Assembly: GCA_021296215.1 (NCBI GenBank)
Contig: JAGWBA010000004.1
Coordinates: forward strand, 1-57,112
DNA length: 57,112 nucleotides
From: Flavobacteriales bacterium
GTDB lineage: Bacteria; Bacteroidota; Bacteroidia; Flavobacteriales; ECT2AJA-044
Direction: 5' to 3'
Shown here piece by piece: positions 4,715 to 45,595 of this stretch (the stretch's first letter is position 1; each line of letters starts with the position of its first letter). The translations under genes were made by a program, and so were the position numbers. A model generated the notes under the pieces. That model worked only from the letters and a program-made list of their open reading frames with translations, was not told the DNA's origin and ran no database searches.

Positions 4715-5707
4715 TCAGTCCTTGTTCAATTTGTATTTCGCAACGTCCATTCCGAACTCCAATCCTTTAGATTGAACAAGTTCGTCCAATTCGGTCAAGC
4801 TCTTTTTACCGAAGTTTCGGAATTTCATCAAATCACTTTTAGTGTAGGTAACCAACTCTCCAAGTGTTTCCACTTCAGCCGCCTTCAAACAATTCAGCGC
4901 ACGAACTGAAAGGTCTAAGTCGACCAATTTCGTTTTCAGCAGCTGACGCATGTGCAACGACTCCTCGTCGTATTCTTCTGCACCGGTTGACTCTTCATCT
5001 TCGAAAGTGAATTTGTCATCAGAGAAGAGCATAAAGTGCTGGATCAAGATCTTGGCCGCGTCGGTCAAAGCCTCTTTAGGATGCAACGAGCCATCTGTTT
5101 CAATCTCGATAAGCAACTTTTCGAAGTCGGTCTTCTGCTCTACACGATAGTTCTCGATGCTGTAGCGCACATTCTTGATCGGAGTGTAGATGCTGTCCAT
5201 GAAGATCGTTCCTAAAGCCGCATTAGACTTCTTATTCTCTTCAGCAGGAACATAACCACGTCCTTTTTCAATGGTCAATTTCATATCGAGTTTTACGCTC
5301 TTGTTCATAGTACAAAGAACCAAGTCGGTATTCAAAACTTGAAAACCAGAGGTGAATTTCTGCAGGTCTCCAGCCGTGAGCGACTCTTGTCCTGAGATGC
5401 TTACGTGAACGGTTTCGTTCTCAACGCCATCGATTTGCTTTTTCAAGCGAACTTGCTTCAAGTTCAGGATGATCTCCGTTACGTCATCTACAACACCTTT
5501 AATCGTGGAGAACTCATGGTCGACACCTTCGATGCGCACGCTCGTAAAGGCATATCCCTCAAGACTGCTGAGCAATACTCTTCTAAGAGCATTACCGATG
5601 GTCAAACCATATCCTGGTTCGAGCGGACGAAATTCAAACTGTCCCTCCAAATCAGTAGAGGTGTTCATGATTACTTTATCTGGCTTCTGAAAGTTGAGGA
5701 TTGCCAT
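4715..5707 (-). CDS. rpoA: DNA-directed RNA polymerase subunit alpha
   Basis: Dimerises to scaffold assembly of RNA polymerase and contacts upstream promoter DNA and activators. The 330-residue protein has the N-terminal assembly domain ([26 protein letters not shown] near residue 27) and, after an acidic linker ([15 protein letters not shown]), the C-terminal DNA-binding domain ending in [16 protein letters not shown]. It sits between rpsD and rplQ as in the classical alpha operon. Confidence 0.98.
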
Positions 5708-43893: not shown

Positions 43894-44748
43894 CTAGTGA
43901 TTCAAAGTCCCGGCGTTTACGACCGGTGAAGCGTCTCGGTCTCCACAAAGGACCACCATCAGGTTCGAAACCATCGCGGCCTTCTTTTCTTCGTCGAGCT
44001 CGATGATCGATTTCTTCGACAATTGCTCGAGGGCTGTTTCGACCATGCCTACAGCGCCCTCAACGATTTTGAGTCGAGCGGCAACAACAGCAGAAGCCTG
44101 TTGGCGCTTGAGCATGGCTCCAGCGATCTCCTGGGCATACGCCAAGTAACCAATACGCGCCTCCATTACTTCGATCCCCGCAATGGCCAACCGCTCATCG
44201 AGCTCCTTCTCTAGGTTATCATTCACCTCTTCTTGCCCACTGCGCAGTGTGATCTCAGCCTCTTCGTCGTCGAAGTTGTCGTACGGATACTTGCCGGCGA
44301 GCTTACGAACCGCAGCATCGGTCTGTACCCGAACGAAGTTCTCATAATCATCGACCTCAAAAGCAGCGGCAAAAGTGTCTTTTACTTTCCAAACGAGGAT
44401 CACACTAATGATGATCGGGTTACCCATTTTGTCGTTCACCTTAACGCGTTCACTATCGAAGTTTCGCGCACGGAGCGATATACTTTGCTTGGAGTAAAAT
44501 GGATTCACCCAAAAGAATCCGTTGGCCTTTACGGTTCCTACATAATCTCCAAACAAGGTGAGCACTTTGGATCCATTGGGATTCAGAAAAAAGAATCCAG
44601 GTAAAAACAGGATCGTCGGAATGGCGAGCAGTAGAAAAACTGGATTTGCGGTAACCGCCGTCGATACAATGGTAGTTACCAATAAGACAAGCAAAATAAC
44701 TAGGCCTACATAGCCTGAAAGCGGTTTGATCGTTTTTTCGTTTGTCAT
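43894..44748 (-). CDS. SPFH/band 7 (stomatin-like) membrane protein
   Basis: A 284-residue inner-membrane protein with two adjacent hydrophobic segments near the N-terminus (GYVGLVILLVLLVTTIVST and PVFLLLAIPTILFLPGFFFL) and a band-7 domain (VKANGFFWVNPFYSKQSISL, DKMGNPIIISVILVWKV, FVRVQTDAAVRKLAGKYPYD). The C-terminal helix (LKRQQASAVVAARLKIVEGA) would mediate oligomerisation. SPFH proteins organise membrane microdomains and scaffold proteases; the partner here is unknown. It is the first gene of a two-gene unit with the RHH protein. Confidence 0.9.
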   Translation of the reverse strand: MTNEKTIKPLSGYVGLVILLVLLVTTIVSTAVTANPVFLLLAIPTILFLPGFFFLNPNGSKVLTLFGDYVGTVKANGFFWVNPFYSKQSISLRARNFDSERVKVNDKMGNPIIISVILVWKVKDTFAAAFEVDDYENFVRVQTDAAVRKLAGKYPYDNFDDEEAEITLRSGQEEVNDNLEKELDERLAIAGIEVMEARIGYLAYAQEIAGAMLKRQQASAVVAARLKIVEGAVGMVETALEQLSKKSIIELDEEKKAAMVSNLMVVLCGDRDASPVVNAGTLNH

Positions 44749-44844
44749 GTCAAGTGATATTATTTTGATATCAATTTAAATAATTATTTCGGATCGTACA
44801 AATCTTCTATGTCCCCCATCGATGAACAATCAATAATTTTTATA

Positions 44845-44880
44845 TGTATATACATTGAATATTAGATATATGTACATATA
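44845..44880. promoter_or_regulatory. Two palindromes over the yceI promoter (candidate operator)
   Basis: TGTATATACA (44845-44854) and TATATGTACATATA (44867-44880) are both perfect palindromes. Their centres are 24 bp apart. The first ends at the base before the -33 TTG, and the second covers the spacer and the first half of the -7 box, so a protein bound there would compete with RNA polymerase. Confidence 0.5.
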
Positions 44881-44884
44881 TTTG
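44855..44884 (+). promoter_or_regulatory. Bacteroidota-type promoter of yceI
   Basis: TTG at 44855-44857 is followed after exactly 19 bases by TATATTTG (44877-44884), a full match to the TTG-N19-TAnnTTTG layout. It lies 24 bases before the ATG at 44909. Confidence 0.75.
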
Positions 44885-44908: not shown

Positions 44909-45595
44909 ATGAAAAAGGTAGTTTTATTCGGAGCCGTAGCCCTTTTATTCGCCTCTTGTGGAGGAAACGTAGAGGGTGATCGCGCAGAGGCCAACGATGC
45001 TCAAGATGTACAAGAGGTATCGGAAGCCGTAGTATACAAAGCCAACACAAAGCAATCGACCATCGCTTGGGAAGGTGCCGATGTGGCCGGAAAGGTACAC
45101 GACGGAGCCATCAGCCTCAACGAAGGTATGTTGAAAGTGAAAGATGGCGCGTTGGTAGGTGGACAATTCGTCATAGATATGTCGTCGCTCGTTAATCACG
45201 ACGTAGAAAACGAAGAGTACAATGCGAAGCTCGTTGGGCACTTGAAATCGCCCGACTTCTTCTCTGTTGACTCCTTCCCTACTGCCTCTTTCGAAATAAC
45301 CTCAGTTGAAGACTATACCGGTACCGAAGGGTTTACTCACACCATCACCGGAAACTTGACCATGAAAGACATCACCAAAAGCATCAGCTTCCCGGCAAAT
45401 GTTTCCATGGACAACGGAACCATCTCAGCAACTACCGGCTCGTTCGTTATCGATCGCTCCGACTGGAACGTGCGATTCCGCTCAGTGACTTTCTTCGACG
45501 CAGCCGAATTGAAAGACAAAGCCATCAAGAACGATATCGGATTAAAGATCAAGTTGGCGGCTCAGGAAGCAAACAACACTACAGCAAGCTTGTAA
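44909..45595 (+). CDS. YceI-family lipoprotein
   Basis: A 228-residue protein. I start at 44909 (MKKVVLFGAVALLFASC), which gives a proper lipoprotein signal with Cys17; the open frame further upstream would overrun the promoter. After a Glu/Ala/Asp linker comes a lipocalin-like YceI domain (STIAWEGADVAGKVHDGAIS, FVIDMSSLVNHDVENEEYNA, LVGHLKSPDFFSVDSFPTAS) that in relatives binds polyisoprenoids. A role in envelope stress or isoprenoid carriage is inferred from the family. Confidence 0.9.
   Translation: MKKVVLFGAVALLFASCGGNVEGDRAEANDAQDVQEVSEAVVYKANTKQSTIAWEGADVAGKVHDGAISLNEGMLKVKDGALVGGQFVIDMSSLVNHDVENEEYNAKLVGHLKSPDFFSVDSFPTASFEITSVEDYTGTEGFTHTITGNLTMKDITKSISFPANVSMDNGTISATTGSFVIDRSDWNVRFRSVTFFDAAELKDKAIKNDIGLKIKLAAQEANNTTASL

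Follow-up and report, generated by a model that had tools for sequence, protein, structure and literature searches.

Two palindromes in a flavobacterial yceI promoter are candidate operators of a self-regulating MarR-family repressor

The promoter of a yceI gene in a Flavobacteriales genome carries two palindromes that are very probably operators of a self-regulating, dimeric MarR-family repressor, which would occlude the promoter upon binding. Across Bacteroidota, judging from gene order and operator matches, this type of MarR protein appears to adjoin the gene for a YceI lipid-binding protein and to control it. Observed directly are the sites themselves and where they lie, along with their conservation and their association with marR and yceI genes. 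The window is the whole stretch of 57,112 nucleotides that was analysed, contig C4 of a 2.53-Mb genome (G000) that is 97% complete. The one further genome of the same genus in the comparison (G001) is referred to below as the congener.

Palindromes and promoter ahead of yceI

The yceI gene (44909-45595, + strand) encodes a protein of 228 aa with a YceI lipocalin-like domain (Pfam PF04264, E 4.8e-26) and an N-terminus that, judged by eye, is lipoprotein-like (FASC). The gene shares its intergenic region with a divergent SPFH/Band 7 gene (43894-44748, - strand; Pfam PF01145, E 3.4e-24), for which no evidence of control by the two sites was found. Near the start of this divergent gene there is another palindrome, TTGATATCAA (44765-44774), in a stretch that is almost fully conserved in the congener; it may belong to the promoter of the SPFH gene.

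The sequence-only reading had placed two perfect palindromes, with centres 24 bp apart, on a -33/-7 promoter, and both the palindromes and the promoter are borne out. The promoter consists of a -33 element TTG (44855-44857, + strand), a spacer of 19 nt, and a -7 element TATATTTG (44877-44884, + strand) that fits TAnnTTTG, the -7 box of flavobacteria according to the available part of PMC9723704. The first palindrome, ATGTATATACAT (44844-44855, no strand assigned, centre 44849.5), is perfect and matches the operator sequence ATGTAnnTACAT exactly; it is referred to here as operator 1, and its final base doubles as the opening T of the -33 TTG. The start at 44845 given earlier delimits a 10-bp core, and the full palindrome begins at 44844. 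The second palindrome, in its visible form, is a perfect one of 16 bp, ATATATGTACATATAT (44866-44881, no strand assigned, centre 44873.5), made up of operator 2 and letters that it has in common with the -7 box. Operator 2 proper, ATATATGTACAT (44866-44877, no strand assigned), has one mismatch to ATGTAnnTACAT, located in its left half, and lies inside the promoter spacer, reaching the -7 box. The TGTA/TACA arms ascribed to both palindromes are common to them only in part, the second having TGTA and TACA overlapped as TGTACA.

Perfect palindromes of at least 12 bp occur 17 times in the window. When the 160-bp intergenic stretch (75% A+T) was subjected to 5000 dinucleotide shuffles, 1.24% of the shuffled sequences contained two or more palindromes of 12 bp or longer (P=0.012), and 2.0% contained one of 16 bp or longer. 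By local shuffles the pair alone is thus only weakly unusual, and it is conservation that makes it a real feature. These numbers leave some room for A/T-rich palindromes that arose by chance and serve no regulator, a reading that becomes highly improbable in view of the conservation in the congener and the repeated placement of the site before marR, yceI, and pirin genes.

Conservation in the congener

The yceI ortholog of the congener is 74% identical, and its promoter aligns with few gaps. The aligned promoter contains two exact ATGTAnnTACAT sites, ATGTAATTACAT and ATGTATCTACAT, whose starts are 22 bp apart (positions 5593 and 5615 of locus L071, read on the opposite strand). ATGTAATTACAT aligns with operator 1, the central TA of which is AT in the congener with the symmetry kept, and ATGTATCTACAT aligns with operator 2. 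Because two exact sites stand 22 bp apart in the congener, the operator is taken to be ATGTAnnTACAT, with a dyad spacing of 22 bp in both species. The alignment thereby corrects the operator frame TATATGTACATATA proposed before; the spacing of 24 bp is true of the visible palindrome centres, but not of the operator dyads. The longer visible form of the second palindrome results from TACAT running into the -7 box, to which its outer letters are partly owed.

Because both species have TACA half-sites at a distance of 22 bp, the first candidate considered was a CarH/LitR operator, the binding site of a B12-MerR light sensor, in which TnTACA half-sites recur at 11-bp intervals over the -33 box. 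Operators of this type consist of three direct TnTACA repeats at 11-bp steps. The likeness lies in TACA half-sites near the -33 box at multiples of 11 bp, with a TATT-like middle repeat, and the genome does encode one CarH-like MerR protein. However, the repeats here are inverted, not direct; even with a loose middle repeat, the three-repeat pattern matches nowhere in the genome; and no ATGTAnnTACAT is found upstream of the CarH-like gene. The CarH-like protein also appears to be without the lower-ligand His when aligned to Thermus CarH, and the palindrome goes with marR, not merR; the proposed regulator is a MarR protein. With neither the repeat pattern nor a site at the regulator gene, the light-sensor operator was rejected as extremely improbable.

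The CarH-like MerR/B12-binding protein (L040 826-1731, - strand, contig C52) keeps W-x9-EH and has SEFNE where Thermus CarH has ERHEI. It is possibly a B12-independent relative.

Genome-wide sites and the candidate regulator

Exact ATGTAnnTACAT occurs at four places in the genome and at seven in the congener, compared with two and two for a reversed control pattern, and 10 of the 11 exact sites lie just upstream of genes. In G000 these genes are yceI, a MarR-family gene (contig C21), and a pirin gene (C7); the one intragenic site (L063 420-431, C32), within a short-chain dehydrogenase frame, is probably due to chance. The congener has exact sites before yceI (two), a second yceI, marR, pirin, a DoxX-like gene, and a thioredoxin-family gene (families assigned by Pfam). 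The search of other promoters for like sites, which had been suggested as a check, therefore returns exact ATGTAnnTACAT before marR, pirin, and yceI in both genomes. The second yceI of G000 carries ACGTAGGTACAT, with one mismatch, at the place matching the exact site of its congener counterpart. As a result, the proposed targets (yceI, second yceI, and pirin) have the same operator in both species. The site before the regulator's own gene, also present in both, is the usual mark of autoregulation.

A nitroreductase gene adjoining pirin was left out of the regulon; it is convergent and without an exact site. A wider motif, AGATGTAnnTACATCT with at most two mismatches, is found 8 times in G000 and 10 times in the congener, below its reversed control (11 and 20), and thus added no members; among eight extra loci that were opened, most sites lay inside reading frames and no clear new target emerged. 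In seven other genomes of the order the ATGTAnnTACAT search gave, in counts alone, 3 to 14 places against 2 to 7 for the controls.

The candidate regulator is a MarR-family protein of 159 aa (C21, 12076-12552, - strand). It has a winged-helix domain with matches to PF12802 (E 1.1e-12) and PF01047 (E 1.3e-08), both past the cut-off, and its own promoter contains ATGTATGTACAT at -36. The protein differs from the named MarR repressors in that it reached no NCBIfam equivalog, the best being HpaR, for which the score of 41.7 bits falls short of the 121.2 required. Among solved structures the best family-profile match is PDB 3u2r, 'Regulatory protein MarR' (E 5.5e-28, residues 11-150), whose entry listing names no operator or ligand. 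A dimeric repressor on each site, as had been supposed from the palindromes, is the best-supported reading given the conservation in the congener, and the MarR protein of C21 is its likely regulator.

Proposed mechanism and known systems

We infer MarR binding, repression, and a signal that relieves it in the following way. One MarR dimer would bind each site. Separated by 22 bp, or roughly two turns of the helix, the two dimers would sit on nearly the same face of the DNA and shield the -33/-7 region from RNA polymerase. Since operator 1 touches the -33 TTG and operator 2 extends to the -7 box, a dimer on either one would exclude polymerase, and repression is the simplest reading. When the signal is sensed, MarR binding would be lost and yceI would be turned on. 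The same MarR protein would repress its own gene, the second yceI, and the pirin gene, and in the congener the DoxX gene and the thioredoxin gene as well.

Autoregulated repressors of the MarR family include E. coli MarR, SlyA, OhrR, and B. subtilis MhqR. The system described here is like them in its winged helix, its short palindromic operators over promoters, and the site before the regulator's own gene. We know of no MarR system, however, that has the arms ATGTA..TACAT and a yceI/pirin target set. MhqR-type quinone/electrophile regulons resemble it in targets alone (DoxX, thioredoxin, and pirin), and no literature linking these targets to MhqR-type quinone/electrophile induction was found. 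Likewise, no description of a MarR-YceI regulon or of YceI control in Bacteroidota was found in a literature search that covered subscription papers thinly, so that the absence is no proof. To our knowledge, transcription factors of Bacteroidota are poorly mapped outside a few models. The MarR-YceI regulon is apparently broad and undescribed, although the repressor type itself is known.

From the targets, a lipophilic or electrophilic signal may be guessed. A lipophilic stress signal is suggested by the targets together with the YceI lipocalins of Burkholderia cenocepacia (BcnA/YceI), which, according to the available part of PMC5350466, are induced by antibiotics, bind octaprenyl pyrophosphate, and capture hydrophobic antibiotics. 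BcnA/YceI is likewise a YceI protein, but adjoins a cytochrome b gene, and a MarR operator is not mentioned in that part of the article. Another Burkholderia case is the methylglyoxal-responsive regulator of B. xenovorans, for which a YceI gene is numbered adjacent in the available part of PMC4349456. With the reading put forward here, the YceI proteins of Bacteroidota gain a likely regulator, operator, and target set, and the question of the effector becomes testable in laboratory strains.

Helix types and operators among MarR relatives

MarR relatives were collected from 148 genomes of the order, with matches in 73 and the best 30 loci opened, and from a named genome collection, where the best 80 of 557 confirmed relatives were retained. 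Many of the 110 loci are closely related to one another, and in at least one case (L077/L112) a single genome seems to be represented twice. The recognition helix is of the type SNxSR in 83 loci, SDxSR in 15, and SNTTR in 10; two were not parsed, one of which was read as SD in later analyses. In MarR proteins, the start of helix 4 is expected to read bases.

The operator found in the 120 bp upstream of marR varies with the helix type. Of the 83 SNxSR loci, 51 have exact ATGTAnnTACAT, where shuffles predict 0.08, and 66 have ATGTAnnTACAT with at most one mismatch (expected 1.70). The other 17 have no such site in these 120 bp; a few of them have one further up or before yceI, the others none. 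At SDxSR loci ATGTAnnTACAT is absent (0/15), and ATGTTnnAACAT is found exactly in 4 of 15 and with at most one mismatch in 7 (expected 0.14). At SNTTR loci TTGTAnnTACAA is exact in 9 of 10 and within one mismatch in all 10 (expected 0.49). The split between helices and operators is not absolute, since exact ATGTTnnAACAT also occurs in 6 of the 83 SNxSR loci. The link was examined on a tree built from 109 proteins after masking of the helix letters, in which SNTTR forms one supported clade and SD represents two changes, a single origin being possible. Each contrast (SD and SNTTR) thus amounts to about one independent change or pair, which carries no significance, and the helix code is offered as a hypothesis. 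The three natural helix/operator pairs lend themselves to tests of DNA reading by MarR proteins.

Five of the six SNxSR loci with exact ATGTTnnAACAT (L106, L113, L121, L122, and L140) have ATGTTGCAACAT upstream of marR, followed 15 bp on by an ATGTA-type site. The MarR protein of such mixed-pair promoters may accept both arms in tandem. The sixth of these loci (L129) is without a neighbouring ATGTA-type site, and yet another SNxSR locus (L142) carries TTGTATATACAA. The layout of an operator with ATATTTG recurs in the marR promoters of G009, G042, G082, G033, G012, and G084. Paired sites in other marR promoters stand at a distance of 15 bp in G012, G084, and others, and of 30 bp in G003, G018, and others; the site spacing is therefore not fixed.

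Three positions ahead of a DRR stretch, 95 of the 110 relatives have a Cys residue and 10 have Ser or Asn, while 5 were not parsed; a thiol sensor is thus possible, but not universal. The most far-reaching form of the proposal, which is tentative and may well not hold, would be a MarR-YceI regulon that extends through the whole phylum Bacteroidota and protects the envelope from lipophilic or electrophilic compounds, with a readable helix code (SNxSR for ATGTAnnTACAT, SDxSR for ATGTTnnAACAT, SNTTR for TTGTAnnTACAA) and sensing via the conserved wing-adjacent Cys.

YceI neighbourhood and yceI promoters

Within the 80 marR loci of the named collection, 59 contain a yceI match, 53 have yceI directly downstream of marR on the same strand with its start less than 400 bp away, and 7 have a pirin match. 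An exact site of its own, within 350 bp and distinct from that of the marR promoter, precedes 9 of 66 yceI matches, and its type always fits the local helix. In three genomes of the order (G003, G018, and G038), yceI and marR are within about 1.3 kb of each other.

An order-level search for yceI itself gave matches in 29 of 40 genomes, and 30 loci were read. A related site is present at six of them (five exact, one with one mismatch) and absent from the other 24, several of which are distant paralogs; most yceI paralogs thus appear to be outside the regulon. The ATGTA type is found at yceI of G000, G001, and G021 and the ATGTT type at that of G032 and G008, with G005 one mismatch from either. 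The helices of G032 (SDSSR), G008 (SDASR), and G021 (SNASR) agree with the exact site types. The expected conservation in orthologous promoters thus extends to both sites in the congener and to some other families, but to only these 6 of 30 yceI loci.

Another dimeric regulator, LexA-like, FNR/DNR-like, or other, might use the sites instead, and some yceI paralogs do carry TTGAT-N4-ATCAA (L018), which we take to be an FNR/DNR-like motif, or near variants of it (L033). From these motifs yceI genes seem to be under different regulators; the sites in the window, however, differ from TTGAT-N4-ATCAA, and FNR/DNR was rejected as found at other yceI paralogs, not here. The SOS motifs of Bacteroidetes are CTAA-N5-TTAG and GGA-N5-TCC in the available part of PMC8565304, and by eye 44844-44881 fits neither, so that LexA was rejected for its different motif. 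Neither LexA nor FNR/DNR explains why the site precedes marR at 51 of 83 loci, which makes another regulator quite improbable compared with the MarR-family repressor.

Upstream of yceI paralogs, the FNR/DNR-like palindrome takes the form TTGATGTACATCAA in L018, with near variants in L019, L024, and L033, which suggests a second regulator for that YceI branch. A 30-bp perfect palindrome, TAAATATATTTTCCATGGAAAATATATTTA, is located at -77 to -48 upstream of the yceI gene of G029 (L013) and is unlike the other motifs.
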